Assembly (NCBI GenBank): GCA_945893045.1
Contig: CAMDEA010000015.1
Coordinates: forward strand, 1-64,000
Length of the DNA stretch: 64,000 bases
Source: Planctomyces sp. SH-PL62
GTDB taxonomy: Bacteria > Planctomycetota > Planctomycetia > Planctomycetales > Planctomycetaceae
Reading direction: 5' to 3'
Positions 2,631 to 55,741 of the stretch are shown in pieces. The notes under the pieces were generated by a model. The model was not told the origin of the DNA. It worked only from the letters and a program-made list of their open reading frames with translations, and ran no database searches. A program made the translations under genes and the position numbers. The stretch's first letter is position 1; every line of letters begins with the position of its first letter.

Positions 2631-5600
2631 CTCTGACGCTTGAATCACTCGTTGTTTCGGAAGCCCGTGTCGCGACGACAGCTCGTCGTGCGCGCGTCTT
2701 GGCGATCACCAGCGAGCTGCCGTGGCCGCTCAACACGGGCGGGCACATTCGGACGTTTCATCTGCTGCGAGCGTTGGCCGAACAATTCGACGTGCGGTTG
2801 TTGACCGTCGTCGAAGAACAGGACGTCGCACATCTTGAGCAACTGCGGAACGTGGGGATCGAAGTCTGCGGCGCAGTGGTTGGACCGCGTCGGTCGTGGA
2901 GCGAAGCGGCGCGCGTGACGTCATCGGCGATGCGAGGCGAACCGTATGTGATGTATCGCCGGCATGATCGCGGCGAATTACGGCGGTTGGTGGAGCACGA
3001 AATCGCTCGCGAGACACCGGACGTCGTGTACTTCGATCATCTCGATCCGTTCGTGTTTCGGCCGCTGATTCCCGCAGGAGTGAGGTTGATCGCCGACTTG
3101 CACAACGTCTACTCGCGGCTGACCGAGCGGGTCGCTGACGAACATCGCGGCCCGAAGCGGATCTTTCTGCGACGTGAAGCGAAGCTGCTGGCACAGATTG
3201 AACAGCGAGTGACGCTCGCGGCAGACGTCGTGATGACGGTGTCGAGCGAAGAACAAAACACATTTCGCGGACTCGGAGGTCGCGACGTGCGGCTGGTGCC
3301 GAACGGCGTCGATTGCCGCGCGTACGCACATCTGCCGATCGGCCGCAACGTATTTCAAAATACCTGTAGCCCAGGCCCTTGTGGCCTGGTCGATTTGGTA
3401 ACGATCGAGAATCAACCGACCCACAAGGGGTCGGGCTACAGCGCGGATGCGATGTATTGCGATTTCGCACCGACGCTGTTGTATCTGGGCGCGATGTCTT
3501 GGCAGCCGAACGCGAAGGCGGCGGAGTTCTTGGCTCGCGAGATTTTGCCGGCCGTGCGGCAGCGTTTTCCAAACGCGCGGTTGCAGTTGGTCGGCCGCAA
3601 TCCGGGAGCGGATGTGCTCGCGCTGCGGCAACTGCCCGGCGTCGAGGTCGCGGCCAACGTGCCGGACGTCGGCGTGTATCTCGCACAGGCGACGTTGCTG
3701 GCCGTGCCTCTGGATTCGGGAGGCGGAACGCGGCTCAAGATTCTCGAAGCGTTCGCCGCTGGGCTGCCCGTCGTCAGCACTCCGATCGGCTGCGAAGGAA
3801 TCGACGCGACGGCCGGCGAGCATTTGTGGATCGCCCCGCGCGAGTCGTTCGCCGATGCGATCTGCGACGCGCTGGCTGATCCGGAAGCCAGTCGCTGTCT
3901 GGCGGAGAACGCTCGGCAGTTGGCGTGGAATCGCTACGACTGGTCGGCGATCGGGCGCGAGGCGTGCGCGGCGGTGCGCGCAGTAACGGATCCGAGCGGA
4001 AAGCCGATTGCAAATTGCAATCTCACTCACGACGTGAACCGTCACAGCCAAACGAACGCCGACCTGAAACAGACTCCCGACCCCTTCGTGCTGCACGTGC
4101 GCGTCGTCACCGGCACCGGCGGCGGTCCGGAGAAAACGATTCTCAACTCGCCGAGATTCTTGAAGCCGCTGGGATACGACTGCGCCTGCGCGTACTTGCA
4201 TCCGCCCGGCGATCCGGGCTTTGAGGTGCTGCGACAGCGAGCATCGGAACTCGATGCCGAGCTGATCTCGGTGCCGGATCGCGGCGCGACCGATTGGCGG
4301 GTCGTGCGGCAACTGCTGCGAATCTGCCGTGAGCGCAACGTCGCGGTGTGGCACGGTCACGATTACAAGAGCAATGCGCTCGGCCTGCTGCTGCGGAAGT
4401 TTCATACGATGGCGTTGGTCTCGACGGTGCATGGCTGGATTGTGCCGTCTCGAAAACTGGCGGCGTATCGCGCGGTCGATCTGGCTTGCTTGCGGCACTA
4501 CGACGAAGTCATCTGCGTGTCCGACGCATTGCTCGACGAGTGCCTGGCCGCGCGTGTGCCGCTGGAACGTTGCCGAGTCATCGAGAACGCGATCGACCTG
4601 ACGAAGTATTCCGACTTGCCGGATCGCGCCGCCGCGCGACGATCGTTGGGGCTGCCGGAACAAGGCAATGTCGTGGTGTCGGTCGGTCGTCTGTCTCCCG
4701 AAAAAGGCTTCGACGTTCTGATTCGCGCTGTCGATCAATTACTGGAATCCGGCTGCGATGTGCGGTTGCTGATCGCGGGCGAGGGAACCGAGCGGTCGGC
4801 TCTGGAGTCCTTGATCAGCGAACTGCATCGCGAGGACCGCATCCAGTTGCTGGGTCATCAACCCGACCCGCGCACGATTTACGCGGCGGCCGATGCGTTC
4901 GTGCTGAGCAGTCATCGCGAGGGATTGCCGAACGTGTTGCTGGAAGCGTTCGCGTGCGGATTACCCGTCGTGGCGACCGCGGTTGGTGGCGTGCCGCGTG
5001 TGATCGCCGATGAGCACAACGGCCTGCTCGTGCCGCCCGGAGACGTCAATGGGCTGACGGTGACGTTGTCGCGCCTGTTGCACAACGACGCGCTGCAACA
5101 ACAGCTCGCGACCGCCGCGCGACGGACGCTTTCGGAGCGTTGTCGCTTTGAAGCGCGGATGCGGAAGGTCGTCGGGGTGTATGACGAGGTGTTGGCAACA
5201 CAATCATCCCGCATTCGGAATGTCGTCAGTGCGTTTGGCCCGAAGGGTCAAGTCTCGTCAGCCCAGGGCAACGCCCTGGGTTCACGTTCCACGGAAGTGC
5301 CAAGCCCTGAAAGGGCGAAACTCTTCGCCGAACGAGTGTCGCCCCTTCAGGGCTTTGATCATGGCGCACCCACTCACCAAGGGCGTTGCCCTGGGCTGTC
5401 GAGTGCTGGCCCTTCAGGCCAAACCGCAGATTTGCAACCAACCCCGGTGGTCACCGTCACCGCTCAGCCGCGCGGTTGGCATGAATACCTCGCCGCACAC
5501 GGCTACGCGGGCTTTCAGCAATCGCCGCAGTGGTCGCAAGCGCTGTCGCACGGCTTGGAACATCAATCGTTCTTCTTGCAGGCGACGCAGGGGCAGCGGC

Positions 5601-6559
5601 TGGTCGGCGTGCTGCCGTTGCAACTGGTCGAGAGTCGGTTGTTCGGACGGTTTCTCGTCAGCTTGCCGTACGTCAATACGGCGGGTGTCGTCGCGGATTC
5701 GGACGTGGCGGCGATGGCGCTGGTCGATCGCGCGATGGAGTTGGCGGATGCGCTCGACGTAAAGCATCTCGAACTGCGGCACGAGCGGGCGATCGAGCAT
5801 CCGAAGTTGGTCAACGGTGTGACGGACAAGGTCCACATGCGGCTGCCGTTGCCTTCCACGAGCGAGGAACTTTGGGACGGGATCAAAGCCAAGGTGCGGA
5901 ATCAAATTCGGAAGGCTCAGAAGACGGACGGCTTCTCGGTGCATTGGGGCCGCGAAGAATTGCTCGGCGAGTTCTACGAGATCTTCTGCCACAACATGCG
6001 CGATTTGGGAACGCCGCCGTTCTCGCGGCAGTTGTTCGCGGAGATCCTGGCGGCGTTTCCCCGCCACTGTAGCCCAGGCCCTTGTGGCCTGGATGATTCG
6101 CAAAACAAGGACGAATCGACCGAGCCACAAGGGCTCGGACTACAGACTGCTGCGGCGGAGATCTGCGTCGTGCGGTTGCACGGCCGGGCGGTGGCGAGCG
6201 GATTGCTAGTGCATGGTCCTGGCACGACGCAGGTGCCGAGCGCCAGTTCGCTGCGCGAGTTCAATTCGTCAAACGCGAACATGCTGCTGTATTGGAACCT
6301 GCTGACGCGAGCGATCGAACGTGGTCAGCGCGAGTTTGATTTCGGTCGCAGCACGCGCGGCGGCGGTACGTTCAAGTTCAAGGCGCAGTGGGGCGCGATC
6401 GAGCATCCGGCCGTGTGGCAGCATTACGTTCGCCACGGCAGCGCCGGCGACATGCGGCCGAGCAACGGTAAGTTTCAAAAGTTGATTCAGATTTGGCAGC
6501 GTCTGCCCGTGTGGGTCACTCGGCTGATCGGGCCGGCGATCGTGCGCGGGATTCCTTAA
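2627..6559 (+). CDS. Giant fusion: glycosyltransferase + glycosyltransferase + FemAB/GNAT-like protein
   Basis: A 1310-residue ORF holding three proteins that are normally separate. Residues about 23-470 form a GT-B transferase of the kind linked to exosortase/PEP-CTERM polysaccharide loci (PWPLNTGGHIRTF; GGGTRLKILEAFAAGLPVV at 365). Residues about 487-860 form a second GT4 (VVTGTGGGPEKTIL; EGLPNVLLEAFACGLPVV at 765). Residues about 942-1310 form a FemAB-like acyltransferase fold protein (SLPYVNTAGVVAD; FDFGRSTRGGGTFKFKAQW at 1237). Both linkers and two internal insertions coincide with inverted repeats or half-repeats (residues 246-272, 479-486, 869-933, 1147-1173). The TTG start at 2627 is uncertain; family homology begins at about residue 23. 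It could be one polypeptide, or three genes joined by repeats that erased stops and starts. Confidence 0.85.
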   Translation: MTLTLESLVVSEARVATTARRARVLAITSELPWPLNTGGHIRTFHLLRALAEQFDVRLLTVVEEQDVAHLEQLRNVGIEVCGAVVGPRRSWSEAARVTSSAMRGEPYVMYRRHDRGELRRLVEHEIARETPDVVYFDHLDPFVFRPLIPAGVRLIADLHNVYSRLTERVADEHRGPKRIFLRREAKLLAQIEQRVTLAADVVMTVSSEEQNTFRGLGGRDVRLVPNGVDCRAYAHLPIGRNVFQNTCSPGPCGLVDLVTIENQPTHKGSGYSADAMYCDFAPTLLYLGAMSWQPNAKAAEFLAREILPAVRQRFPNARLQLVGRNPGADVLALRQLPGVEVAANVPDVGVYLAQATLLAVPLDSGGGTRLKILEAFAAGLPVVSTPIGCEGIDATAGEHLWIAPRESFADAICDALADPEASRCLAENARQLAWNRYDWSAIGREACAAVRAVTDPSGKPIANCNLTHDVNRHSQTNADLKQTPDPFVLHVRVVTGTGGGPEKTILNSPRFLKPLGYDCACAYLHPPGDPGFEVLRQRASELDAELISVPDRGATDWRVVRQLLRICRERNVAVWHGHDYKSNALGLLLRKFHTMALVSTVHGWIVPSRKLAAYRAVDLACLRHYDEVICVSDALLDECLAARVPLERCRVIENAIDLTKYSDLPDRAAARRSLGLPEQGNVVVSVGRLSPEKGFDVLIRAVDQLLESGCDVRLLIAGEGTERSALESLISELHREDRIQLLGHQPDPRTIYAAADAFVLSSHREGLPNVLLEAFACGLPVVATAVGGVPRVIADEHNGLLVPPGDVNGLTVTLSRLLHNDALQQQLATAARRTLSERCRFEARMRKVVGVYDEVLATQSSRIRNVVSAFGPKGQVSSAQGNALGSRSTEVPSPERAKLFAERVSPLQGFDHGAPTHQGRCPGLSSAGPSGQTADLQPTPVVTVTAQPRGWHEYLAAHGYAGFQQSPQWSQALSHGLEHQSFFLQATQGQRLVGVLPLQLVESRLFGRFLVSLPYVNTAGVVADSDVAAMALVDRAMELADALDVKHLELRHERAIEHPKLVNGVTDKVHMRLPLPSTSEELWDGIKAKVRNQIRKAQKTDGFSVHWGREELLGEFYEIFCHNMRDLGTPPFSRQLFAEILAAFPRHCSPGPCGLDDSQNKDESTEPQGLGLQTAAAEICVVRLHGRAVASGLLVHGPGTTQVPSASSLREFNSSNANMLLYWNLLTRAIERGQREFDFGRSTRGGGTFKFKAQWGAIEHPAVWQHYVRHGSAGDMRPSNGKFQKLIQIWQRLPVWVTRLIGPAIVRGIP
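3366..3439. repeat. GTAG/CTAC double-hairpin element inside glycosyltransferase 1
   Basis: Left hairpin CCAGGCC-CTTGT-GGCCTGG is preceded by GTAGC. The right arm, read on the minus strand, is GTAGCCC followed by the hairpin CCGACCC-CTTGT-GGGTCGG. The two stems differ yet each is self-complementary with the same loop. It is translated in frame as an insertion of about 25 residues. Confidence 0.9.
4059..4084 (+). repeat. Solitary half of the family found at 24548 and 25646
   Basis: These 26 bp match one arm of the inverted repeats at 24548-24650 and 25646-25749 with a single mismatch. No partner arm is seen upstream. It encodes DLKQTPDP in the linker between the two glycosyltransferase domains. 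Confidence 0.75.
5232..5424. repeat. Nested composite of three inverted hairpin pairs at a domain junction
   Basis: The outermost pair is at 5232-5251 and 5408-5424 (TGGCCCTTCAGGCCAAAC type). The middle pair is at 5259-5280 and 5380-5398 (GCCCAGGGCAACGCCCTGGG). The inner pair is at 5302-5317 and 5340-5357 (AAGCCCTGAAAGGGC). All are translated as the linker between glycosyltransferase 2 and the FemAB-like domain. Confidence 0.85.
6069..6143. repeat. GTAG/CTAC double-hairpin element inside the FemAB-like domain
   Basis: Left hairpin CCAGGCC-CTTGT-GGCCTGG follows GTAGC. The right arm read on the minus strand has CCGAGCC-CTTGT-GGCTCGG after GTAGT. Stem bases differ between arms but pairing is kept. 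Translated in frame. Confidence 0.9.
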
Positions 6560-6572
6560 TAAAGGTTGGGCC

Positions 6573-9500
6573 ATGTCCTTCTGGAAACGCATCTCGCCCT
6601 TCGCCGTGCCGACCGTGTTTCGGTTGTGCGTGGTGTTGGCGGCGGCGGTGGTGCTGACGTTTTTGTTGTTGTCGTCGGACCCGTCGCGGATCTTTCGCTG
6701 GATGCCGATTCGCGGCGGACGAGACGTTTACGAACACACTCCCGATTGGGTGCAGCACTTCTCGGCCTATCTGCTGTTCAGCTTTTTGTTGCAGTGGTAC
6801 GCGGCCGGGAAGTCACGCTGGTTCGTGCCGCTGCTGGCGGGGTTCGCGGTCATTCATGCGATGACCACCGAGTACCTGCAACGGTTCGTGCCGGAACGGA
6901 CCAGCGATCTGCGCGATCTGGTGGTGAACTTCCTGGGGATTGCGTCGGGGATGCTGGCGGCGCGGGCGGCGATGTGGTTGTTCGATGCGCAGTTTGCGGA
7001 CGTCGCGGTGCCGTTGCAGTTTCGTCCCGTGGGGCAGGTTTCCAACCTGCCCGTCCGATCCGGGCAGGTTGGAAACCTGCCCCGCGGTGCGTGCGGCCTA
7101 TCGCGCAACGCGGTAACGGTCGCGCCTGGCGAATTGAAACCGGCGCGAGTGATCAACTTTGGATTCTTGGCCGGGCTGAGCGTGGTGTCGATCGTGCTGG
7201 TCGGGACCGTGCATGTGGTGCATGGTTGGCAGGTGCAGCGGCACGCGGGTGGTTTGATGGAGCTGGGCCGTCAGGCTCAAGGGGAGGGTGATCTCAGGGC
7301 GGCGCGCGATTACTTCGCGCGGTATGTCGGCTTGGTGCCGGGGGATGTCGGCGCGTTGGCCGACTACGGATTGTTGTTGGATGAAATGCACGTGGGGCCG
7401 CGTCAGGCTCGGCAGGTGTTCATGGTTTACGAGGACGTGTTGCGTGCCGATCCGACTCGCGAGGAGATTCGTCGCCGGCAGATTGAGATTGCGATGGAGG
7501 CGGGACGCATTCCGGACGCACTGGCGCATGTGCGTGTGCTGCGGCAGTCGTATCCGACGGAGGGCAAGCTGGACTATCAAGCGGGTCGCTGCTTCGAGGA
7601 ACTGGCCGAGCACGACTCGGCGGTGAAGGCGTATGAGGCCGCGCTGGAACATTCGCCCGACTTGTTGGACACGTATGCTCGTCTGGCTTGGATGAATCAG
7701 ACGAAGCTGGAGCGACCGGAGCGTGCGCGAAAACTCTTGGACGATCTGGTCGCGCGCTTCCGAGCATCGGCGACGGCGTGGCTGACGCGCGGGCGGTTTC
7801 AGGCGGAGTTCGGATCGCGCGATGCGGCGCTGGCGGATCTGGAACAAGCCCGCAAGCTCGCGCCGGATGCGGTGGATGTGCTGTTGGCGTCGGCGCGATT
7901 GGCTTACGACCGAGCGACCGCCGCGCGCACGGAAGGCCGCGCTGCGTTGGCTCAGCGGATCGTCGCGGAGTCGCGGCAGCAGTTGCAGCGCGGTGTCGAG
8001 CAACATCCCAATCAACTCGATCTGCGGTTGCAGCGCGTGATGTTGGAAGTTCATTTCGGTGTGCCGACCGAGGCTCAGCGGCAGATTGATGAGTTGTTGA
8101 AGCTCAGTCCGAAGAACGTCCAGGCGCACTTACTGCTGGCGGATATGACGATCGAGCAAGGCCGCTTCGAGCAAGCTCAAGCGGCGATCGACAGGCTGCC
8201 GCACACGCCCGGTTCGGATGCGCTGCGGCGGTTCCTGGAAGGCCGCCGGTTGATGTCGCAGCGACAGTGGCCGCAGGCGATTGAGGCTTTGGAACATGCG
8301 CGGCGGATCACGACGGACTCATCCAGTCTGATGGAGCGGACGGAGCTTGCACTGGCGCAGTGTCACGCGGCGGCGGGGGACGATGAGGCTCAAGCGGCGG
8401 CGTTTCGGCGAGTGCTCAAGGCGAATCCGGTGTCGGTTCCCGCGCGGCTCGGCTTGGCGGCGGTGTTGCTCAAGCAGCAGCGGATGAACGAAGCGATTGC
8501 CGAGTTCCGGCCACTGGCGCATTTGCGGCAGGTGCGACTGCAGCTCGCACGGCTGTTGATTGCCCGCAATCTGCAACTGCCGGAGCTGGCTCGCGAGTGG
8601 AGTGAGATCGAGACGCTGCTCGCACAGGCGAAAGAGCAGCACGACGACTCGGCGAATGAACGGTTACTGCGATCCGAAATGCTGACAGCTCGTGGACAGC
8701 CGGATGCCGCGCGGCGCGTGATCGCGGAAGGGGCGGCACTCGTGAACGAGCAACGGGCGCGGGCCGGTGTTCTCGCAACGAGTCCGCGCCGTGCCGATCA
8801 ACAAGCCGCGTTGAAACTGCTCAGCGACCTGGCCGATCAAAACCAGTTGCTGCCGAAAGACCGCTGGTTGCTCGGCCGATTGCTGGAGTCGCAAGGACAG
8901 ACACACGAGGCCGATGGTCACTTCCGCGCGGTGTTGGCCGAGACATCCGCCGACGCGGAATATCGAATCGAGTACATCGGCCGTTTGATTCGTCGCGGCC
9001 AACTGGACGAAGCCCAGCAGCGGTTCGATGACTTGCGCCGACAACAGCCGCAAGCGTTTTCGACGCTGTCGCTCGAACTGCGGTTGCACGCGGCACGCGG
9101 CGAGATGGCCTCGGTGGTGAATCGGCTGAAAACAGAAGCCGACTTAGCAGGGGATGATGCCGCGCGTCTGTCGCAACTCGCAATTCTGGCCGACGGGATC
9201 GGGGCACCTCTCGCCGAACGGTTGTATCGGCAAGCGGCTGAGCGACAGCCGCAGTATGTGAGTGATTTGGTCCGCTTCCTGGTTCGCGCACAGCAAGTGC
9301 CGGCCGCGTTTGAAGTCTGTGAGTCCGCGTGGTCACGGCTGCCTTCCGAGTTGGTCGCGCCGCTGGCGCTGTCGTTGCTCGCGTTTCCGGAAGGCCGAAC
9401 CGAACGCTTGCCGCCGTTGGAGACGAAGCTCGTCAAAGCGGTCGAACAGAACACCCAGTCGCTGTCGCTTCTGGCCAACTTGGCGGACCTGCGTTGCTGG

Positions 9501-10210: not shown

Positions 10211-10231
10211 CTTTTCTTGCGCAACGATTTG

Positions 10232-11026: not shown

Positions 11027-11069
11027 GAGTTGCTCCTTCAACAGTGTGACCGAGGCTCCGCCTCAGACC

Positions 11070-11133
11070 GTAGCCACGCTCGCCAGAGCGTGGGCGTCGA
11101 ACCATCAGCCCACGTTCTGGCGAACGTGGCTAC
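11070..11133. repeat. GTAG/CTAC double-hairpin element
   Basis: Left hairpin CCACGCT-CGCCAG-AGCGTGG after GTAG. The right arm read on the minus strand is GTAG then CCACGTT-CGCCAG-AACGTGG. The third stem pair is changed on both sides, so pairing is preserved. Intergenic, upstream of the 10232-11026 gene. Confidence 0.9.
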
Positions 11134-12997: not shown

Positions 12998-13413
12998 TGC
13001 GGATCGATTTCGAGCGTGACGGCGAATGAAGCATGACCTCGATCATGCAGGACCGTCAGTGAGATCGGACTCTGACGGAACAACCCTTTGTGCCAATTGT
13101 GCCGAGCGCGCCGAAACTGTCAGTCGCACCGCCAAGTCGCAGGCTAGATAAAATTTGCCGATCGCGTTGAGTTGCCCGCGTCCACGGTCGTTGTCTTTGA
13201 GAACTACGCTGCTGGCGGCTTTCATCAGTGGCTCTCTGATCGTTCCGTAGCCCGACCCCTTGTGGGTCGGAGGATTTTGAATAAGCGTCCATTTCTCATG
13301 AAAATCAAATCCTCCGACCCACAAGGGGTCGGGCTACGGAAGAAAGATCCACTTTTCGGATAGTCACTCACTGACCGCCGCACTCGGCGGTTTCCACGAA
13401 ACAGGCTTTGGGC
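12998..13413. other. Intergenic region with one double-hairpin element
   Basis: Divergent promoter space between the Wza-like gene (minus) and the membrane protein at 13414 (plus). Apart from the GTAG/CTAC element at 13247-13337, no gene with credible coding character is seen; the short ORFs here are repeat-derived. Confidence 0.6.
13247..13337. repeat. GTAG/CTAC double-hairpin element
   Basis: Both arms carry GTAGCCCGACCCCTTGTGGG then TCGG; the hairpin is CCGACCC-CTTGT-GGGTCGG. The spacer is about 43 bp and is itself partly inverted (GGATTTTGA against TCAAATCC). Confidence 0.9.
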
Positions 13414-14097
13414 ATGAAGAACATCCCCACTCGACAAGTCGTGCTCTGCGTTGGCTCGCTGGTGACGTGGGTGTTGTTATATGCGGCCGGGTTGCTGTTG
13501 GAGTCGGTCGAGCATCGGGTCGTGCTGGCCCCGCACATGATGGAAAAGCAATTGGGAACGGCCGGCAAAAATGTTTTCGATCAGGCGCTGAAGAACCATG
13601 TGCCCGGAGCCTGGTTGTTCTTCCGAGCTTTGATTTGCTACAGCCCCACGAACATGGCACTGCTGACTCTGATCTCCGCGTTCCTCGGCGGCTGTGTCAG
13701 TAATGCGATGGTGGCGAGCATGGAAGAACAAGAATTGAAGCGGCTGCCTTCGCGGCGTTTCGCGTTCCTCTCCGAGAATCCACTGGCCGCGACGATGCGG
13801 GGCTTTGTGGCCTATCTGTGTTTGATCGCGGGGCTGTATGTGGCGATGGATGACCCGTTCAAAGACAGCACTCCCGGCCAATATGCCCGGTTGGCTGGAT
13901 CGCTGTCGTTGGTGGCGTTCGTCGTGGGTTATGACCCGACGCGCATTGAGGGTTGGCTGCGCATGGTCCCCAGCCCGCAACCAATCGGCGGACGACTGGC
14001 TCCCGAATCGCCCAAGCCGGACACGCTCACGAAAGAACCGTCGTTGGCACCGGCTCGATTGCCGGTGGAACCCGGTTCGCCGCCGACCACAAAGTAG
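13414..14097 (+). CDS. Integral membrane protein, unknown function
   Basis: 227 residues. Hydrophobic segments are at about residues 8-28 (VLCVGSLVTWVLLYAAGLLL), 75-95 (MALLTLISAFLGGCVSNAMV), 127-145 (FVAYLCLIAGLYVAM) and 160-175, followed by a Pro-rich soluble tail. I do not recognise the family. ATG 13414 is preferred over the TTG 6 bp upstream. The stop codon TAG (14095-14097) is part of the GTAG that opens the adjacent inverted repeat, so the repeat abuts or defines the end of the gene. It converges with rhaB. Confidence 0.75.
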   Translation: MKNIPTRQVVLCVGSLVTWVLLYAAGLLLESVEHRVVLAPHMMEKQLGTAGKNVFDQALKNHVPGAWLFFRALICYSPTNMALLTLISAFLGGCVSNAMVASMEEQELKRLPSRRFAFLSENPLAATMRGFVAYLCLIAGLYVAMDDPFKDSTPGQYARLAGSLSLVAFVVGYDPTRIEGWLRMVPSPQPIGGRLAPESPKPDTLTKEPSLAPARLPVEPGSPPTTK

Positions 14098-14147
14098 ACG
14101 AGTCACTCCGTGACTCGAAGTTTCCGGTCACGGAGTGACCGGTCTAC
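14094..14147. repeat. GTAG/CTAC double-hairpin element between convergent genes
   Basis: Left hairpin CGAGTCA-CTCCG-TGACTCG. The right arm read on the minus strand is CCGGTCA-CTCCG-TGACCGG. The loop and GTAGAC flank are constant while the outer stem pairs change on both sides. Confidence 0.9.
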
Positions 14148-26919: not shown

Positions 26920-26987
26920 GTAGCCAAGCTCGCCAGAGCTTGGGATGTTGTCACGGGTGGCACCCAATCTCTGGCGAGCTTGGCTAC
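26920..26987. repeat. GTAG/CTAC double-hairpin element
   Basis: Left hairpin CCAAGCT-CGCCAG-AGCTTGG after GTAG; the right arm has the same loop with one unpaired stem position. Same family as 11070 and 55676. Confidence 0.9.
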
Positions 26988-34986: not shown

Positions 34987-35046
34987 GCTCGTAGTGACCC
35001 AATTGATCGGGGCGGTCTCGACCCATTCAATGGGGTCACTACGAGC
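34987..35046. repeat. GTAG/CTAC inverted repeat between convergent genes
   Basis: Arms GCTCGTAGTGACCCAATTGA / its near-inverse GGGTCACTACGAGC, with GTAG at 34991 and CTAC at 35039. Lies between nasA (plus) and the Cys-rich protein (minus). Confidence 0.85.
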
Positions 35047-35971: not shown

Positions 35972-38011
35972 ATGAGCAAAAAACAACACGAAGTTCCGGC
36001 CGATGACTGGGCCGGGCTGGCCCAAAACCTGTTTGGTATCGATCTGGATCAGTCTGGCGGTGATGACGACCTGCTCGATAAAGACATGTTCAAAGTCGAG
36101 ATACCTGCGCCAGCGGAACCAGCGGCTCCGAAGGTTTCCGACGAGTTGATTACCTTCTCAGAGGCCGAGCCTCCGAATACTGCGGAAGCCCCGGCACCTA
36201 CGCCGGTCGTTGCTCCGAAAGTTACTGTCACAAAGCCAAAGCCGACGCCGCCCAGCAAAACGGTTGTCGCGAAAACGCTTGCCCAGGACGACCCTTTTGG
36301 AGCTGGCATCCTCGAAGCAGAGGAAATCGCGGCTGCAACTTCCCAGACAGATAGTTTTGACGAAGGACTCACGCTGCCGGAGGACTTCGATGACGAAGGT
36401 CTGACGCTGGCGTCCGATTTCGATGATGGATTGACGTTGCCTCTCGACCAGGAAGAGGACGGCCTGACTTTGGCTGCGGACGACGTCGATGATCTGACAT
36501 TCTCTTCTGAGAACGATTCGCCGAATGAAGTCGCATTTGACGGCGAAGACGACTCCGAAAACGCGCCGGCTGAAGGGAGCGATTCCAAGCCGGGGGCTCG
36601 CTCTGAAAGCCCTCGCAAACGAAATCCGCGCCGCACTCGCGAAGATGCTTACTGGGACATGCTCGAAAATTGGGAGTGGGAAGAGATCCCGGATAGCGAT
36701 TCGCCGCGAAGTGGCGGAGACCGATCACCCGTCCGTGGCGGCAGTCGAGATCGTGGCGGACGCAGCGGTGGAGACCGTGGTGGCCGCGGCGGACGCAGCG
36801 GCGGCGGGGATCGCGGTGGACGGGACGAACGGCCGCGCTCAGCGGGACCGGCACGTTCGGAAGAGCGTCCGCGTCGCGACGAATCTCGTCCTGCCGACGC
36901 AGCACCCACGACTCATCGAAGTGAATCCGGTGATCCAGCCGCTCGGCCACGACGTGACGACCGCCCGCGCGATGATCGTGGCCCGCGAACTGAACGCCGA
37001 CCAGATCGTGACTCGCGCCGTGACGAACCACGGCCAGCCGTTGCGAGTCAATTGGCGGCTCCAACAAACGTTTCCGATGATTTCGGTTCCGGCATCTTTG
37101 AAGAACAATCGTCGTCGGCACGGACACCCTCTGTTCCGAAACCGCCAGCTCCGGCCGCTCGTCCGCCACGCGAGGAGGCGGTCGCACAAAGCTCGCACGC
37201 CGCTGATGCGGTGTTGCGGGATTCGAATCGTGTGACCGGGCAATCCGTCGGCGACGAACTGGTCTGGCCCGATGAAAATGACAATTCCGATGTGCGGCCG
37301 GCAGCGATGGAAAGTGTGGTTGAGACCTCCGGCCTTCCGGCGGCTGACGTCGCAGGCGAGTCCGATCGAATGGTCTCCGCCTCCGACGTCGAACCACTCG
37401 ATGAATCCGAGCAGCGGTCACGGCGTCCTCGCCGCCGACGTCGCCGTGGTAGTGGCCCCATGTCCGATAGGACTGCACCGCCGGATGGCAACGAAGGCAC
37501 AACGTTCGATCTGAGCGAAGCCCTGTCGAGTGAAAGCGAGACTCCCGAGTTCATTCCGTCGGCCAGTGCGGATGATTCGGCCGTGAGCGCTGAGTCACCA
37601 GGAGATGCGACTGAAGACGCGACCGGCGAAGGTCCGTCGTCCCAACGTCGCGGTAGTCGTCGCCGTCGCCGCCGTCGTCCCGGTGAAAACGCGCCAGGTG
37701 ATGCGGCTCCCAACACGAATTCCGAGGTCCATGCGGAGAGTGAGATCACGGGGCCGGCCGAGATCTATGAAGACGACGAACCCCTCTTGAAGCCCATCGC
37801 CTATTCCAACGTTCCGTCCTGGGAAGAGGCACTCCGGTACTTGCTGGAACCACATCTGGTGGGCCGCAATCTGGGGCCCGACGACGAGGACGACGGCTTG
37901 GCCAGCGACCCACGCGGTTCGGGCGGCGCGGAACCGATATCAGCACCACCACCACCTCCACAGCGCCGTCGCCGAGGTGGCGGGAGCGGCGGTCGCGGAC
38001 GACGACCGTAA
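35972..38011 (+). CDS. Low-complexity acidic/RGG-rich protein with conserved C-terminal motif
   Basis: 679 residues, mostly disordered. It begins MSKKQHEVPADDWAGLAQNL. An acidic block with repeated EGLTL units spans about 130-175 (DEGLTLPEDFDDEGLTLASD). An Arg-Gly block spans about 247-290 (GGDRGGRGGRSGGGDRGGRD) and further Arg-rich clusters follow (RRPRRRRRRG). Near the end SNVPSWEEALRYLLEPHL precedes a GRGRRP tail. The tail motif resembles one I recall from other planctomycete RG-rich proteins. RGG and Arg-rich tracts commonly bind RNA, so an RNA-associated scaffold, perhaps RNase-E-like, is an inference. ATG 35972 fits the conserved start; the ORF is open further upstream. Confidence 0.7.
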   Translation: MSKKQHEVPADDWAGLAQNLFGIDLDQSGGDDDLLDKDMFKVEIPAPAEPAAPKVSDELITFSEAEPPNTAEAPAPTPVVAPKVTVTKPKPTPPSKTVVAKTLAQDDPFGAGILEAEEIAAATSQTDSFDEGLTLPEDFDDEGLTLASDFDDGLTLPLDQEEDGLTLAADDVDDLTFSSENDSPNEVAFDGEDDSENAPAEGSDSKPGARSESPRKRNPRRTREDAYWDMLENWEWEEIPDSDSPRSGGDRSPVRGGSRDRGGRSGGDRGGRGGRSGGGDRGGRDERPRSAGPARSEERPRRDESRPADAAPTTHRSESGDPAARPRRDDRPRDDRGPRTERRPDRDSRRDEPRPAVASQLAAPTNVSDDFGSGIFEEQSSSARTPSVPKPPAPAARPPREEAVAQSSHAADAVLRDSNRVTGQSVGDELVWPDENDNSDVRPAAMESVVETSGLPAADVAGESDRMVSASDVEPLDESEQRSRRPRRRRRRGSGPMSDRTAPPDGNEGTTFDLSEALSSESETPEFIPSASADDSAVSAESPGDATEDATGEGPSSQRRGSRRRRRRRPGENAPGDAAPNTNSEVHAESEITGPAEIYEDDEPLLKPIAYSNVPSWEEALRYLLEPHLVGRNLGPDDEDDGLASDPRGSGGAEPISAPPPPPQRRRRGGGSGGRGRRP

Positions 38012-47631: not shown

Positions 47632-47729
47632 ACTCGCCGCCGTTGGTCAGGGTCGCTGTCGGATTCGTTTGCAGTGGCATTGGAATGACTGACGAGGCAC
47701 GGCAACAAGTCACACTGAGTATCGTTCGC

Positions 47730-48584
47730 ATGTCCGAGATTCAGTTCGAGACTCCGGAAAACGTGCAACTGTCGTACAAGCCAGCGGGCTTGGGGACGCG
47801 CTTCCTGGCGTGGTTCGTCGATCAACTGATCATCTTCATTTGCCTGATGCTGCTGCTGTTCTTCGTGATCATCGCGGGAGCGGCTTCCGATTCGGTGTTG
47901 AAGAGCCTCACCGATCCGCTGCGCGATGCGGGCGAGGGTTTCGACCCGCGCGACCCGGAGTCGGCTCAGCGCGTCATGCTGTACTTGATCGGCCTGTGGA
48001 TGGTGGTCTGGGGACTGGGCAGCTTCTTCTATTTCGGAATCTCAGAGCTATGCCTGCGGGGTCAAACGCTCGGCAAACGCTCCTCGAAAATTCGCGTGGT
48101 GAAAGTCGATGGCTTCGCGCTGGACGCCATCAGCATCTTGGTGCGCAATGTGTTTCGCGTGGTCGATCATCTGCCGGTCTTGTGGATCGTCCCGCTGTTG
48201 TCGGCGCGCAGCCAACGCTTCGGCGACATGATCGCGGGGACGATCGTGATCGAGGACGAACCCGCCAAGCTGGCCGGCCCACGTCACACGCTGGCGAATC
48301 GCTCGGCAGCGGATGCTCGCTTCCGCTTTGATGCCGGGCAGTTGAAGAAGCTTCGCCCACAAGACGTCCAAGCGGTCGAGCAGTTGCTGGAGCGTTGGGC
48401 CGAAATCTCCGCTGACCGCCGCGAGCAGTTCGTCACCACGATCGTTTACTCGCTCTGTCAGCGTATGGATTGCGAGCCGCCCCCTTCAGGCACCGATCTG
48501 CACAAGGTGACCGATTCGCGGCGAGTCTTCCTGGAAGACCTGCTGGCGGCGGAGTATCGTCGGCAGAACCGCCAACTCGGCTGA
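47730..48584 (+). CDS. RDD-family membrane protein
   Basis: 284 residues. The RDD domain is at about residues 15-190: Arg and Asp in TRFLAWFVDQLIIFICLML, GQTLGKRSSKIRVVKVDG, and RSQRFGDMIAGTIVIEDE. A cytoplasmic helical C-terminus follows (KLRPQDVQAVEQLLERWAE). The start is ATG 47730 (MSEIQFETPENVQL). It is divergent from the SpoIIM-like gene with a 98-bp shared promoter region. Some RDD proteins are reported as ion antiporters, but the role of this SpoIIM-linked type is not known. Confidence 0.9.
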   Translation: MSEIQFETPENVQLSYKPAGLGTRFLAWFVDQLIIFICLMLLLFFVIIAGAASDSVLKSLTDPLRDAGEGFDPRDPESAQRVMLYLIGLWMVVWGLGSFFYFGISELCLRGQTLGKRSSKIRVVKVDGFALDAISILVRNVFRVVDHLPVLWIVPLLSARSQRFGDMIAGTIVIEDEPAKLAGPRHTLANRSAADARFRFDAGQLKKLRPQDVQAVEQLLERWAEISADRREQFVTTIVYSLCQRMDCEPPPSGTDLHKVTDSRRVFLEDLLAAEYRRQNRQLG

Positions 48585-48655
48585 GTGGTTGATGATCTGA
48601 GCGGTCGCCTCTAACGTGTCGCGCGCAGCTTTGGGGACGGCACGAAATAACTTCT

Positions 48656-48730
48656 GTAGCGGAACGGCGCAAGCCGTCCGGTGTCGGCGAATCGCCGCCC
48701 GAAACCGGAGGGCTTGCGCCCTGCCGCTAC
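48656..48730. repeat. GTAG/CTAC double-hairpin element
   Basis: Left hairpin ACGGC-GCAA-GCCGT, flanked by GTAGCGG and CCGGT. The right arm read on the minus strand is AGGGC-GCAA-GCCCT with the same flanks and loop. The stem change is compensated. Confidence 0.92.
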
Positions 48731-48801
48731 TTTGAACTCCGGGAAGTTAATTTGATCCGACCCCTTTGGACCTCTTTCTCGCACGCCAAGTCACGTCCAC
48801 G

Positions 48802-50079: not shown

Positions 50080-53000
50080 TGCGCATCGCGGAGTTTCATG
50101 TCGAGGGCTTTGGACGATTGGCGAACGTCTCGATGACCGACGTCCCGCCGGGTCTGTCGATCGTGTTGGGCCAGAACGAGGCGGGCAAGACGACTCTGTT
50201 GGAGTTTCTCCGCGCGATCCTGTTCGGTCTCCCTGCCCGCAAGCAGAAGGAGTTTTACCCGCCGCTCAACGGAGGCCGCAAAGGGGGCCGCATCGTCCTG
50301 CGGAACGAACACGCCGAACGGATCATCGTCGAGCGTTTCGAAGGCAAAGGGACCGGACCGTTGAGCGTGACGCTGCCCGACGGGTCGCAGGGTGGCGAGG
50401 CGGAGTTTCGGCAACTCATCGGCTCGGCGACCGACGACCTCTACAAAAACGTCTTCGCGTTCAGCTTGTCGGAGTTGCAATCGTTTGAATCGCTCAGGAC
50501 CGAGAAAGTTCGCGACGCGATTTACAGCGCGGGCATCGGTATTGGCCGCAAGACGATTACTCAGATCATTCAAGAACTGACCAAGCAGGCCGGAGAATTG
50601 TTTGTGCCCGGCGGTTCGACAAAGGCCATGAACCAACTGCTCAGCCGCATCGAGGATCATGGCCGGCAGATCAAAGGCCATGAAAAGGACCAGGACGAGT
50701 ACGAGCGAATCCAGCGGGAACTCGCGGCCTGTGAAGCGGGCCTGGGACGCATCCGATCGGACCTGAAACAAGCACGGGAACGATTCCATCGGGTGGGTCT
50801 CCTTCAACAAGCACGCGAGGACTGGCTGACCTTGGGGGAATGCCGCGAGCAATTGCAGGCGTTGCCGCTGATCGAATCATTCCCGATGAATGGCGTGCAG
50901 CGATTCGAGGAATTGGTCACCGAGCGGCGCGGGGATCGGGGCCAGTTGGATCAAACGACATCTCAAATGGAGAGCGACCGAACGAGTCTCGCTGCGATTG
51001 ACGTCGATCAAGTTCTCCTGCACGCGGCCAAGGAGATTCGCCGCCTGGACCGAGGTTTGGAACTCCACGAGAAGAGTCGGCAACAACTTCTGTCGCTGAC
51101 GACAGAGCGCGAACTGGCCGAACAGAAACTGAGCGGCATGCTCGGCGATCTCGGTGACGAATGGGACGAGCAGAAGCTCACGGCGTTTGATCTGTCCGTC
51201 CCGATGCGCGAAGAAGTCGAGCAGTGCCGGCGAGCCTGCGAGGAAGCGAAAGTCGCGGCGCGCGAGCGAAAGCTCGAAGGGGAACTCGCGGGCCAAAAGC
51301 AAGCCGAAGACAGCCGCATCGAAGACGAATCGCGAGCGAAGCTCAATGCTCTGAGCCAACCGTTGGCGGCGCTGGATGCGGCCGGAATCCGCAAGTTGCA
51401 AATGGGCTGGGAGCGATACGCCAGTGCCTGTGACGATCGACCTCGCGTGGCACAGGATTGCGAGACCCAGATTGGCAACCTCAACGACACGCTGCGAAAG
51501 TTGGGGTCGCATTGGAACGAACCGAGACTTCGGGACTTTGACACGTCCTTGGCCGTTCAAGAGCGAATACTGACGCATCAGAAAATGCTCTCCGATCTCC
51601 GTTCCGCAGGGCAGGAGGCCGCCCGTCGCGTTCAAGAATCCCAGCAATCCATCGCCGACGCAAAAGGGGACTTGGAAAAGGCGGAAGCCGTGCTCGCGGC
51701 GATGCCGACGCCGGAAGTTCAAGACGCTGCGCGGTTGGCCGACGGCCAGCGTGCCTGCCGGACACTGCGGTCCCAACTCAATCACCACCAACAGCGTCAG
51801 GCCGAACTCGCGCATTGGGACGAGCGTCTGCGAGACTTCGATGCTCAAATCGCGCGTCTGCAACAGGAGTCTCAACGCGAGACGTTCGGTCTTCCGACCT
51901 GGACGCTGCCACTGGTGTTGAGCGTGGGTGTTGTGGCTTTGCTCGGTCTGGGATTCGGACGCGGTGATTGGGTCACGGGCAGCATTGTCTGTGGATTGTT
52001 CGCGATCGCGGCTCTCGCACTGGCACTGGCAGGCCGGGCATTTTCCGCGCGAGCGGAACAGCAGCTCGCGGATCGAACGCAAGCGATCAACGACCTTCAA
52101 CTGAGACGTCAGCAACTCGATCAGGCAGCGCGGAGTCTGCGTTCCGAAGTGACGGACTCGGAAAGCACGTTGCGCGAGCAGGCTCAGGCCGCGGGCTTCG
52201 CCAGCGTTCCGGATGGGCACGCGCTCGATGACGCCGCCGACCGTGTCGAGCGACAGCTCGCCCTCTTGCAGCAACGCGGGCCGGTCGAACAAAAACGTGA
52301 CGATGCCCAAGCCGCGATCACGAGAGCCCAAGCCGCACTCGCGCGAGCCACTGCGGCTGAGACCGAAACGACGAAGCTTCTGAACGCGGCCCAAGAGCAG
52401 TGGCGACAATGGTTGGTGCGGGCCGAGTTGCCGGAATCGTTCACGCCCGAAAGCGGGATCACGATCCTCGGCCGGCTGGATGCGGCTCGCGAACAACTTA
52501 AAGCCATCGACCGTGAACGAGACCGCATCGTCCAGATGCAGGAGGCGATCCGCGAGTACGAATCGCAGTTGCAGGCCGTGGCAGTCGCCAGCGGTTTGCA
52601 GGCGGCACTTCCGCAGGACTCGCGCGAGGCGGTGCCGTTCTTGGTGACTCGGCTGGAAGCGCACGAGAAGAACGCTCAGGCCATGGAGGAAGCGGCGCGA
52701 ATCCTGGCTGACTCCGTGAAGAAAGCGGCGCAAGCTCAGACCAAAACTGCGAAGGCTGAGAAGCTCTACCAAGCCGCACTGGACCGGGAACGGACGTGCC
52801 AACAGCAGTGGAGCGACCTGCGACAGCGACTTGGTCTGCGCGATTCGCTCGCGATCGACAGCGCTCCGCAAATGTTGCAGGCCATCGAACGTGCTCGCGA
52901 TCAGTGCGTCCAAGTTCGCGACCTGCGGAAACGAGAGACAACTTCACGAGCCGTCATCGACGTCTATGACAACGAAGTCCGCTCGGTCTGCAACACGATC

Positions 53001-54053
53001 AGACGCGCGGAGCCGACCAACGCGGAGGTTCCGAAAGCGGTCTCGGACTTGGCGAAGGAACTCGATCAGGCCGAACAGGCTGATCGTCGTGCCGGGACTT
53101 TGCGAGGAAACCTCGACCAACTTGCAGCCCGTGCCAAATTGCTGAAACACCAAATCGGTCAACGCCAAGAGGAGATCAACGCACTTCTGAATGCCGCAGC
53201 CACCACGGATGAAGAAGCGTTTCGTCTCATCGCTGCCGATTATGAAACTCGACAAGCACTCGATCAGCAAGCGCGGCAACTGGAACTGCGGTTGCTGCAA
53301 CTCGCCGGCAGCGTGAACGCGGTCCAGGCTTTGAAGGATGAACTCGCGCACGCGACTTCCGACGAACTCAGCACCGAGCGGATGACGTTGGAAGAAACGA
53401 TCGAGACGATCGAGCAGCAACAGACGAACGCTGCGGACGAACGGGGGCGATTGCGGGAACAGTTGGAACGATTGGAGAAGTCGGACGAAGTCTCGCGTCT
53501 GCGCATCGAGCAGCAGGCCGACCGCGCGGAGTTCGCCACTCTGGCCGAGGAATGGTCGGTTCTCAAAATCGCCACGCGACTCATCGACCGAGCACGCGAG
53601 AAGTACGAACGCGAACGCCGGCCAGGCGTGTTGAAAGAAGCCGAGCGTTATTTCGCGCGCTTCACGAACGGCAACTACACGGAGATTCTGACTCCGGCCG
53701 GTGAGGATCAGATTGTGGTGCTCACGCCCGATGGCTCGCGAAAGGAGGTCGGCCAACTCAGCCGAGGTACGGCCGAGCAACTTTATCTGTCGCTGCGATT
53801 CGGCTTTGTTCAAGCGTTCGTCGGCCGCTCCGAGCCGCTGCCGTTGGTCTTTGACGACATCCTCGTCAACTTCGATGCCGGCCGAGCACGAGCGGCGGTC
53901 GAAGCGATTCTCGAACTTTCCAAGTCGCTCCAAATCCTGCTCTTCACTTGCCACACCTCAACCGTCGAACTGATGCGAAAAGTCGATCGCACGATTCCCG
54001 TGTTCGCACTGAAAGACGGTCGCTTCACAGCGGTCGGCGGAGATCTGCCATAA
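50079..54053 (+). CDS. YhaN/SbcC-like AAA ATPase with coiled coils and membrane segments
   Basis: 1324 residues. Walker A GQNEAGKTT is at residue 31. Long coiled coils follow, interrupted at about residues 604-650 by two hydrophobic segments (TWTLPLVLSVGVVALLGLGF, SIVCGLFAIAALALALAGRA), then more coiled coil. The C-terminal ATPase half has the signature QLSRGTAEQLYLSL and Walker B LPLVFDDILVNFD. The layout is that of YhaN, which pairs with YhaO; membrane segments in place of the zinc hook of Rad50 are characteristic of that type. It presumably forms a membrane-associated DNA-processing complex with the upstream gene, with which it overlaps. Confidence 0.9.
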   Translation: MRIAEFHVEGFGRLANVSMTDVPPGLSIVLGQNEAGKTTLLEFLRAILFGLPARKQKEFYPPLNGGRKGGRIVLRNEHAERIIVERFEGKGTGPLSVTLPDGSQGGEAEFRQLIGSATDDLYKNVFAFSLSELQSFESLRTEKVRDAIYSAGIGIGRKTITQIIQELTKQAGELFVPGGSTKAMNQLLSRIEDHGRQIKGHEKDQDEYERIQRELAACEAGLGRIRSDLKQARERFHRVGLLQQAREDWLTLGECREQLQALPLIESFPMNGVQRFEELVTERRGDRGQLDQTTSQMESDRTSLAAIDVDQVLLHAAKEIRRLDRGLELHEKSRQQLLSLTTERELAEQKLSGMLGDLGDEWDEQKLTAFDLSVPMREEVEQCRRACEEAKVAARERKLEGELAGQKQAEDSRIEDESRAKLNALSQPLAALDAAGIRKLQMGWERYASACDDRPRVAQDCETQIGNLNDTLRKLGSHWNEPRLRDFDTSLAVQERILTHQKMLSDLRSAGQEAARRVQESQQSIADAKGDLEKAEAVLAAMPTPEVQDAARLADGQRACRTLRSQLNHHQQRQAELAHWDERLRDFDAQIARLQQESQRETFGLPTWTLPLVLSVGVVALLGLGFGRGDWVTGSIVCGLFAIAALALALAGRAFSARAEQQLADRTQAINDLQLRRQQLDQAARSLRSEVTDSESTLREQAQAAGFASVPDGHALDDAADRVERQLALLQQRGPVEQKRDDAQAAITRAQAALARATAAETETTKLLNAAQEQWRQWLVRAELPESFTPESGITILGRLDAAREQLKAIDRERDRIVQMQEAIREYESQLQAVAVASGLQAALPQDSREAVPFLVTRLEAHEKNAQAMEEAARILADSVKKAAQAQTKTAKAEKLYQAALDRERTCQQQWSDLRQRLGLRDSLAIDSAPQMLQAIERARDQCVQVRDLRKRETTSRAVIDVYDNEVRSVCNTIRRAEPTNAEVPKAVSDLAKELDQAEQADRRAGTLRGNLDQLAARAKLLKHQIGQRQEEINALLNAAATTDEEAFRLIAADYETRQALDQQARQLELRLLQLAGSVNAVQALKDELAHATSDELSTERMTLEETIETIEQQQTNAADERGRLREQLERLEKSDEVSRLRIEQQADRAEFATLAEEWSVLKIATRLIDRAREKYERERRPGVLKEAERYFARFTNGNYTEILTPAGEDQIVVLTPDGSRKEVGQLSRGTAEQLYLSLRFGFVQAFVGRSEPLPLVFDDILVNFDAGRARAAVEAILELSKSLQILLFTCHTSTVELMRKVDRTIPVFALKDGRFTAVGGDLP

Positions 54054-54171
54054 GTCTGCGTGGTTCGTCGCGCCCCGTCCGCCAACGCGACAGAACTGTG
54101 TTGGCGACACGCCGGCCGACGGGTAAGCTCATTCGACAACGGTGCGGTCAACGACTCACCAGGAGACGTCC

Positions 54172-55665
54172 ATGTTGCGGGTACTCGGCGGACCGAAACG
54201 ACTCTGCAACGGCGTCACACGCCGTGATCTGCTAAGTGTCGGCGGCTTGAGCCTGCTGGGTGTCGGCCATCCCGCACTCGTTCCCACCGGGATCGCGGCC
54301 GAGAAGTCTGCCGACACCACGCTGCCTGGATTCGGTCGCGCGAAGAACGTCATTTTGCTCTATTTATTTGGTGGTCCTAGTCACGTCGAAACGCTGGACT
54401 TGAAGCCGCAAGCTCCGGTCGAGATTCGTGGCAAGCTGCAATCCATCGACTCAAAGTTGCCGGGTCTGCATCTGTGCGAGCACCTGCCGAAGATGTCGCA
54501 GATCATGGATCGCGTCACCGTGGTTCGCTCGCTGACGCATCCGTGGAACTTTCATGGAATGCAGTACGCGACCACCGGATCACCCGAAGGGAGCGTCCCG
54601 CTCGAAGAGACGTTGGGGCATCCGCAGCATCAACCGTTCTTGGGCTCGGTGGTGCATTACCACGATCAGCAACGGCGCGGCTCGAAGCCACCGGGAGCGA
54701 TCCCGGACAACATCATGCTCCCCTTCCTGCTGAGCAGCCGGCGTTCGGCCGCGCGCTACACGGCTCCCTCGGCGATGTATCTGGGAAGTCGCTTCGATCC
54801 AATCTGGACCGAGTTCCGTGGCGAAGCCACGCGCCGCATGTTGCGACGCTCCTTCGGCCCGCCGGCCGAGTTCGCTGATCCGTACCTCGGAATGAAGCCA
54901 GACGGTCGCTTCCTGATCGCCGCCGAAGCGGACTTGCCGGCCGACTTGTCGATTGACCGACTCAATCGGCGACGATCGTTGCTCGATCAACTCGAATCGC
55001 TGCGCCGGGATCTCGATCGGCAAGGGTCGCGAACGACGCTCGATCAGAAACGGGAGCTGGCGTTTTCGCTGCTCGACTCGCGAACGATCCGCTCGGCGTT
55101 CGATCTCGATCAAGAGCCGGCGAACCTGCGCGACGCTTATGGCATGACGCTGTTCGGCCAATCGACGCTGCAAGCAAGGCGATTGGTCGAAGCGGGTTGC
55201 CGATTCGTGACCGTCGTGTGGGACGAGTTCGGCCAACTCAACGCCGGCTGGGACACGCACGTCGATCATTACAACCGCCTGACGAACGAACTTCTTCCGG
55301 GCTTGGACATGGCCTTCTCCGCGTTGATCCGCGACCTCGAAGCTCGCGGGATGCTCGACGACACGCTGGTGCTCGTGATGAACGAGATGGGCCGCACACC
55401 GCGCTTTGAAGGGGAAGGCCGTGGCCACTGGGGCCGCGCCTATTCCAACTTCTTCGCCGGAGCCGGTCTCAAGCGCGGCAACATCATCGGCCGCACCGAC
55501 TCGATTGGAGCGACCGTCGCCGACCGGCCACTCTCCGCGAAAGACATCCTGGCGACCATCTATCATCTGATCGGCATCAATCCCAACTCGACGCTGACCG
55601 ATGTTCTCAACCGCCCCGTTCCGCTGGTGCATGACGGGAAGATCATTCCCGAAATGCTCGCGTGA
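54172..55665 (+). CDS. DUF1501 secreted protein with Tat signal
   Basis: 497 residues. A twin-arginine signal (CNGVTRRDLLSVGGLSLLGV) leads into a DUF1501 domain of the alkaline-phosphatase-like/sulfatase-like superfamily: VILLYLFGGPSHVETLDLKP, VVRSLTHPWNFHGM, GRRFVTV-type GCRFVTVVWDEFGQLNAGWD, LVLVMNEMGRTPRFEGEGRG. DUF1501 proteins are abundant in planctomycetes and usually sit beside a DUF1549/DUF1553 cytochrome-type partner, which is missing here. ATG 54172 places the RR motif near residue 18. Function unknown. Confidence 0.92.
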   Translation: MLRVLGGPKRLCNGVTRRDLLSVGGLSLLGVGHPALVPTGIAAEKSADTTLPGFGRAKNVILLYLFGGPSHVETLDLKPQAPVEIRGKLQSIDSKLPGLHLCEHLPKMSQIMDRVTVVRSLTHPWNFHGMQYATTGSPEGSVPLEETLGHPQHQPFLGSVVHYHDQQRRGSKPPGAIPDNIMLPFLLSSRRSAARYTAPSAMYLGSRFDPIWTEFRGEATRRMLRRSFGPPAEFADPYLGMKPDGRFLIAAEADLPADLSIDRLNRRRSLLDQLESLRRDLDRQGSRTTLDQKRELAFSLLDSRTIRSAFDLDQEPANLRDAYGMTLFGQSTLQARRLVEAGCRFVTVVWDEFGQLNAGWDTHVDHYNRLTNELLPGLDMAFSALIRDLEARGMLDDTLVLVMNEMGRTPRFEGEGRGHWGRAYSNFFAGAGLKRGNIIGRTDSIGATVADRPLSAKDILATIYHLIGINPNSTLTDVLNRPVPLVHDGKIIPEMLA

Positions 55666-55675
55666 CTAGCGCGTC

Positions 55676-55741
55676 GTAGCCACGCTCGCCAAGAGCGTGG
55701 GTGATTCGAGGAAACCCCACGCTCTTGGCGAGCGTGGCTAC
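55676..55741. repeat. GTAG/CTAC double-hairpin element
   Basis: Both arms carry GTAG then CCACGCTC-GCCAA-GAGCGTGG. It starts 10 bp after the DUF1501 stop codon. Confidence 0.92.

Follow-up and report, generated by a model that had tools for sequence, protein, structure and literature searches.

Paired GTAG hairpins of many families in a planctomycete genome are most likely REPINs dispersed by RAYT transposases and share positions across sister species

Nine paired hairpins that open with GTAG and close with CTAC are scattered over a 64,000-nucleotide stretch of planctomycete DNA (Planctomyces sp. SH-PL62, contig CAMDEA010000015.1, positions 1 to 64,000; hereafter the window), and we consider it highly probable (roughly 0.92) that they are REPINs, mobile elements of a non-autonomous kind that were most likely spread by RAYT (REP-associated tyrosine transposase, or TnpA-REP) enzymes, which are Y1 transposases of the HUH class. 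A REPIN here consists of two inverted repetitive extragenic palindrome (REP) hairpins, each with an unpaired GTAG at its foot. Several deeply diverged RAYT lineages would circulate in this planctomycete genus, each recognising its own hairpin, and the families may share only the foot and the shape because each RAYT would read its own hairpin while GTAG would serve all of them as a common guide for the cut. Insertions would be retained where they do little harm, that is between genes or in protein loops and linkers where the frame stays open, and the same position may be taken by unrelated families either because few positions of this kind exist or because a hairpin already in place draws further ones.

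Paired GTAG hairpins in the window and across the genome

The sequence-only reading of the window had listed nine loci of this architecture and at least five families among them, and both statements were borne out. All nine loci start with GTAG and end with CTAC (9/9), each can be read by eye as two inverted hairpins, and they sort into five families, A to E (Table 1). A strict scan that accepted only perfect stems of at least 6 pairs recovered 6 of the 9 loci as pairs, the remaining three (26920, 34991, and 48656) having one or two imperfect stems, and the same scan returned no pair in 20 dinucleotide shuffles of the window. The families are told apart by their loop regions, which are CCTTGTGG in family A and TCGCCAGA in family B (with an extra A in the loop at 55676), and by the sequences CACTCCGTG in family C, TGACC..ATTGAT in family D, and GGCGCAAGCC in family E. 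A sixth family, F, is represented in the window by a lone REP read from 712 to 689 that the sequence-only reading did not contain. An Rfam search of the window gave no match at gathering scores.

Table 1. Positions of the paired hairpins, of the lone REP, and of the gene that hosts two of the elements in the window.
Feature	Position	Strand	Remarks
Single REP, family F (GTAGGTCAGGCTTTCCAGCCTGAC)	689..712	-	family of the contig C27 RAYT
Open reading frame (ORF), 1310 aa	2627..6559	+	two GT4 glycosyltransferase units and a GNAT/FemAB-like domain; hosts two in-frame REPINs
REPIN family A	3366..3439	.	inside ORF 2627-6559, in frame
REPIN family A	6069..6143	.	inside ORF 2627-6559, in frame
REPIN family B, loop region TCGCCAGA	11070..11133	.	
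REPIN family A, long form (91 bp)	13247..13337	.	
REPIN family C	14094..14147	.	
REPIN family B, imperfect right arm	26920..26987	.	
REPIN family D	34991..35042	.	cognate RAYT in sister genome G004 (L234), not in own assembly
REPIN family E, bulged stems	48656..48730	.	no cognate RAYT seen
REPIN family B variant, loop CCAA	55676..55741	.	

The window is part of contig C15 of an assembly of 7.83 Mb in 251 contigs that is 89% complete. Paired GTAG hairpins are far commoner in this assembly than in shuffled sequence, with 36 pairs in 400 kb (20 stretches) versus 0 in each of five shuffles. A larger sample of 1.264 Mb, made up of 61 pieces (20 and 40 stretches plus the window) that come from the longer contigs and were picked by position and not at random, contained 104 pairs, or by extrapolation about 640. 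The count is too low for families D and E, because the scan accepted only perfect or near-perfect hairpins, 40-160 apart; the clustering also merged families C and H. Searches with family consensus sequences pointed the same way, with the reversed consensus as the control in each case: family B gave 122 arms genome-wide with up to 3 mismatches versus 0 for the control, and the 1.264-Mb sample gave 41 versus 3 for family A, 53 versus 1 for C, 16 versus 1 for D, and 12 versus 0 for E. Beyond the window we found families G (ACGCCTACGT), H (ACATTCCATGT), I (GGGACTCCGTCCC), and J (GACTCTCCGAGTC), so that families with repeated members run from A to J, at least ten GTAG families, besides which GTGG, class-3-like, and other inverted repeats occur. 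Compensatory changes in the stems were present in 6 of the 6 families in which they were counted. The proposal that one genome hosts an unusually diverse set of elements sharing only GTAG and shape is supported, and such diversity is in keeping with a number of RAYT lineages that are deeply diverged and have separate hairpins.

RAYT genes flanked by the same hairpin families

The genome also contains the type of transposase gene that the sequence-only reading had suggested looking for. Using the PF01797 and NF047646 profiles we detected seven RAYT-like and six IS200-like genes, the latter called by Pfam scores (contigs C30, C217, C40, and C64) or by exceeding the NCBIfam IS200 cut-off (C9 and C48). 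Two of the RAYT-like genes lie near the NF047646 cut-off of 80 bits, scoring 78.7 and 80.2 (C27) and 78.8 and 81.3 (C155) in two runs, and a search with a model built from ten GTAG/GTRG-type RAYTs added no new strong RAYT in the own genome. Inverted repeats common to both flanks are present at 7 of the 7 RAYT-like genes: those of the C27 gene are family F, those of the C11 gene family A, those of the C31 and C110 genes GTRG types (GTGG/GTAG), those of the C2 and C8 genes class-3-like, and those of the C155 gene GGGG-type. A first strict scan had shown no convincing REPs beside the C8, C31, C110, and C155 genes, and it was the search for any shared flank that revealed the other feet (GTGG, GTRG, CTGA-like class-3, and GGGG). 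In a PDB sequence search the C27 protein gave a weak match to the E. coli TnpA-REP 4er8 (E = 0.032), and the C31 protein only an unrelated one (E = 0.89). The closest named homologue of the C27 RAYT is 83% identical and comes from a metagenome-assembled genome labelled Planctomyces sp., and the next six are Planctomycetota too, from which the host was taken to be a planctomycete. Nine named Planctomycetota loci out of 80 (L137-L145) were inspected, and at seven of them GTAG REPs of the L007 kind, or of a close variant, occur repeatedly.

We extended the comparison to sister genomes, eleven from the same genus (G001-G011) and one from the same family (G012). Ten of those eleven entered the later searches; G009 was covered by one sister search only, and G001 gave no match in three of the searches. 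All loci matched within the genus plus one of G012 make up 60 sister RAYT-type loci. Inverted repeats flank 41 of these on both sides: 12 have like GTAG hairpins on both sides, 2 have GTGG hairpins (14/60 for the GTAG/GTGG type), and 27 have another shared inverted flank of at least 16 bases. At 300 random places of the own genome the same control yielded 0 GTRG hairpins and 2 shared flanks. The sister RAYTs include genes flanked by families B (L324), D (L234), H (L314), I (L313 and L315), and F (L236), by an F-like family (L295), and by a C-like type (L318). Cognate RAYTs are thus present in the own assembly for families A and F, and only in sisters for B, D, H, I, and the C-like type; for E, G, and J none was seen in the own assembly or the sisters. 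When ten RAYTs flanked by GTAG or GTRG repeats were aligned, all ten had the H-x-H motif and the catalytic tyrosine unchanged. In a tree of 50 proteins, which excludes L319, the C11 gene, the broken gene of C110, and loci that lack clear flanks or are otherwise fragmentary, the GTAG-flank label (assigned by the author) requires 6 changes, versus a mean of 17 when shuffled. As judged from this tree, the GTAG-flanked RAYTs belong to several deep lineages, with GTAG common to distant RAYTs that each have their own hairpin.

Short inverted-repeat elements in many copies could also be ordinary miniature inverted-repeat transposable elements, moved by a DDE transposase and bounded by target-site duplications, which we regard as extremely improbable: the arms are hairpins with an unpaired GTAG foot, and genes of the HUH/Y1 type are flanked by the same arms. 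A constant target-site duplication was not seen by eye in the element flanks, where divergence between sisters may hide one.

Several observations weigh against REPINs dispersed by RAYTs. Chance seems to account for at least one of the 104 pairs, L050 9246-9385, whose two arms are unlike. Broken stem pairs outnumber compensatory ones in families B (21 versus 14), A (11 versus 7), and H (11 versus 9), and the loop is more conserved than the stem in A, B, C, and G, though not in F and H. On the side of the transposases, the C11 gene has an internal TAG and the C110 gene is frame-shifted, 19 of the 60 sister loci have no clear flanking repeat, L137, the closest named homologue, carries a family F pair on just one of its sides while L144 carries none, and a model of the B-type RAYT found no third copy in eleven genomes beyond its two source genes. 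Shared flanks are not RAYT-specific either, some being present at 4 of the 5 IS200-like genes tested; for this reason, weight is given to flanks that match REP families dispersed in the genome. Finally, the own assembly, 89% complete, shows no cognate RAYT for B and C, two families abundant here, nor for E, G, H, I, and J, which may reflect an assembly gap because repeats break assemblies.

Some of the RAYT-like loci have features of their own. The C2 gene was considered as the cognate of family C, a C-type REPIN lying about 850 bases away, and was dropped as such since its own flanks are of another kind. The class-3-like Y1 genes of C8 (L008) and C2 (L010) have flanking inverted repeats with GCCAGC or GCTAGC cores, which are numerous in the sample (20 and 40 matches versus 0 and 1 when reversed). 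On contig C155, the RAYT-like gene (L009 606-1565) carries in addition a weak match, under the Pfam cut-off, to the DnaA C-terminal helix-turn-helix (HTH) domain, and its terminal repeats are of the GGGGTCAGGT type, as in the TIRtrons of the excerpted PMC3733652. The frame-shifted C110 RAYT (L065 337-1155) has one GTGG hairpin at each end in inverted orientation, like a small insertion sequence.

In-frame insertions and shared slots in sister genomes

Two of the window elements, which the sequence-only reading had not placed within a gene, lie inside ORF 2627-6559, where the frame reads CSPGPCGLVDLVTIENQPTHKGSGY (3366) and CSPGPCGLDDSQNKDESTEPQGLGLQ (6069); one insert sits in the linker between the two GT4 domain matches. 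Among the 104 pairs, a codon model identified 27 with coding flanks on both sides and the same strand, versus 624 of 1040 random places (608 of the 624 in one frame), and an open stretch of at least 600 bases covers 46% of the pairs versus 90% of random places; the latter test is rough, and the codon model was used instead for the frame counts. The frame is the same on both sides in 20 of the 27 and shifted in 7, with one third expected to be the same for random frames (P about 2e-5), and 17 of the 104 are inside genes, in frame, and stop-free, the two of the window among them. A Pfam scan of these inserts, which left out the ORF of L047, placed those of ten further ORFs within protein kinase, PSD1, and AAA_16 matches, between two glycosyltransferase matches, between PSD4 and PSCyt3, and, in three ORFs, outside the best match shown (YHS, FG-GAP, and PFK); two of the ten had no match at the threshold used. 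The insert in the kinase is a family F REPIN (L058 18502-18568) that adds 23 residues to a Ser/Thr kinase just behind the DFG motif, inside the Pfam match.

The avoidance of genes, together with the position by eye of several of the nine loci between the ends of long ORFs, is what one would expect if the pairs were bidirectional terminators or hairpins at mRNA 3' ends, with GTAG and CTAC by coincidence. We nevertheless judge this very improbable, since the sequences are common to many loci, most copies have the GTAG foot, the same elements flank RAYT genes, and 17 of the 104 stand within genes in frame.

Comparison of orthologous positions in the sister genomes provided sites without the element, the lack of which in all close relatives the sequence-only reading had named as a refutation. 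At locus 34991, which is alignable in seven sisters, G004 has an F-like REPIN, G002 another inverted repeat, and G010 a decayed element, and no pair is present in G003, G005, G006, and G007; three of these four have no element, and the gap in G005 holds GTAG followed by an imperfect palindrome below scan acceptance. The 13247 element does not stand between the aligned flanks in G008 and G004, where the flanks are trimmed by 27-55 bases. G008 has the same element as the own genome at 14094, with a decayed right end, and three further sisters that aligned there with trimmed flanks only were not counted. The only one of the eleven sisters searched with a close DNA match to ORF 2627-6559, G006, has different inverted repeats at both 3366 and 6069, also in frame. 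At the ortholog of 55676 in G008 (L076), a family B element lacks its left GTAG and has about 490 extra bases just to its left. In G002 and G008, the matches to window positions 36000 and 54900 are only about 5 kb apart on one contig, and the intervening part of the window therefore looks like an insertion or rearrangement.

The orthologous positions are best described as slots that hold unrelated families or nothing. Along a 3.4-kb coding stretch of contig C11 aligned across ten genomes, variable-length insertions are confined to three slots, apart from a terminal block of the alignment and, in G008, a 38-base insert that has no inverted repeat. Slot 35059 holds family F in the own genome, G005, and G008, family I in G004 (decayed in G003), a class-3 type in G010, a GTAGCCACGGGCGG type in G002, and no inverted repeat in G006, G007, and G011. 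Slot 36122 holds family C in the own genome, G007, and G010, family J in G004, GTGG-footed palindromes in G005 and G011 (decayed in G003), and a GGTCTCCC type in G002, G006, and G008. Slot 37513 is empty in 3 of 9 sisters, with 2-4 bases versus the own element and about 13 flanking bases; its other occupants are a GTCGCTCC type (G007 and G010), a GGTCTCCC type (G004 and G006), family J (G002), and a mosaic (G008). Near L052 5300-5400 lies a fourth place, where unlike segments of comparable length interchange; one such segment is the GTGG-type hairpin of G005 and G007. A broader comparison, which covered about 26 kb of own sequence, took in 52 elements, of which 37 were alignable in at least one sister. 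In one sister or more, 18 of them had an inverted repeat of a different kind in their place, 18 faced an empty site, and 24 were matched by the same element; the categories overlap, many rows concern slots already counted, C-type and GTCGCTCC-type elements both pass as 'same', and 'different' was assigned by rule.

Two causes of this sharing may be considered. It could be passive, few loops and linkers tolerating inserts and independent insertions accumulating there under selection on the host protein. This has somewhat better than even odds in our view: one insert lies in the GT4-GT4 linker, further inserts fall inside or between domains that Pfam still recognises, and one slot (37513) stands without any insert in three sisters. 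In 3.4 kb of coding sequence aligned over ten genomes, however, the inverted-repeat inserts keep to three places that vary in length and a fourth where segments of similar length are exchanged, which is few for neutral tolerance. Sharing could also be active, a standing REPIN being a preferred target on which the newcomer nests or with which it swaps an arm while the old one decays, and we give this a lesser chance, around one in three. In its favour, the element at 36122 is nested inside a C-type REPIN in G006 and stands beside a C-type remnant in G002, and the mosaic at 37513 combines one C-type arm with one arm of another type; these are three cases only, and most other occupants look complete and of a single family.

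Directly before slot 36122 (L052 about 6174-6185, contig C11) stands GCAAAAAAAAAGTAG, which is kept in 10 of 10 aligned genus genomes; no other run of A9 or T9 occurs in the 1.2 Mb sampled from the own genome. An ORF with ThuA and laminin-G parts ends at this A9 site and an ORF with DUF6797 and cytochrome parts goes on in the -1 frame; in G012, of another genus, the ThuA/laminin-G and DUF6797 parts form one open frame. An inverted-repeat element lies just downstream of the A9 run in nine of the ten genomes, and a decayed one in G003. The site is likely a programmed slippage or frameshift site. More speculatively, and with odds well below even, REPINs may act as interchangeable coding cassettes, fixed protein slots being re-occupied in frame by unrelated families that land on or swap arms with a standing hairpin, the host thereby gaining linker peptides, and at the A9 slot the hairpin might be recruited to set the level of frameshifting.

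Comparison with known systems

A genus with at least ten coexisting families and RAYTs scattered over sister genomes offers a way to read which RAYT residues go with which hairpin, and the same genus allows competition of families for sites to be tested. At the in-frame slots, mobile elements repeatedly rewrite protein linkers, and empty and occupied states can be compared directly. To our knowledge, most work on REPINs concerns proteobacteria with one to few families per genome. The REPIN was reportedly described by Bertels and Rainey in 2011 as an inverted pair of REPs that forms a mobile unit together with a RAYT gene; unlike those REPINs, many unrelated populations coexist in the present genome. 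No RAYT is known for the Rickettsia palindromic elements (RPE). Like the elements described here, RPE, which are also cited in the excerpt of PMC3733652, are palindromes read inside proteins, and unlike RPE the slots of this genus are common to many families.

Among the RAYT-like genes, those of C2 and C8 resemble class 3 TnpA-Y1, which the excerpt of PMC6006769 describes as having a CnGA foot and occurring mainly in Planctomycetes, Acidobacteria, and Proteobacteria: they have the NHVH, WT, and Y(I/V)LEAQ motifs, and the C2 flanks start with CTGA, an assignment made by motif and by eye. According to the excerpt of PMC8266576, GTAG takes part in the choice of the cut, and for the RAYT of S. maltophilia the loop is what is read and pairing of the stem is required. 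The sharing of GTAG by distant RAYTs with hairpins of their own agrees with this biochemistry, and the sequence patterns of most of the present families suggest a like combination of loop reading and a paired stem.

The nearest precedent is the work of Di Nocera et al. (2013), whose excerpted text (PMC3733652) describes GTAG REPs, REPtrons, and repeat-specific RAYTs, GTAG repeats in Planctomycetes, intragenic REPs, a single instance (Xanthomonas recB) in which different REPs occupy roughly one site, and several genomes with more than one family (S. maltophilia families 6 to 9). The elements here are like those GTAG REPs in their foot, in stems mostly of 6-9 bp, in their short loops, and in forming head-to-head dimers. 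GTAG REPs, RAYTs, intragenic REPs, and a same-site pair are thus already in print, at least in that excerpt, and a search of open-licence PMC titles and starts of abstracts found no report on slot turnover of REPINs across sister species, which is no proof of absence. The number of families and the turnover of slots look new, the difference from the excerpted account being that here one genome has at least ten GTAG families and that, over ten genomes belonging to one genus, families repeatedly replace one another at a given site.
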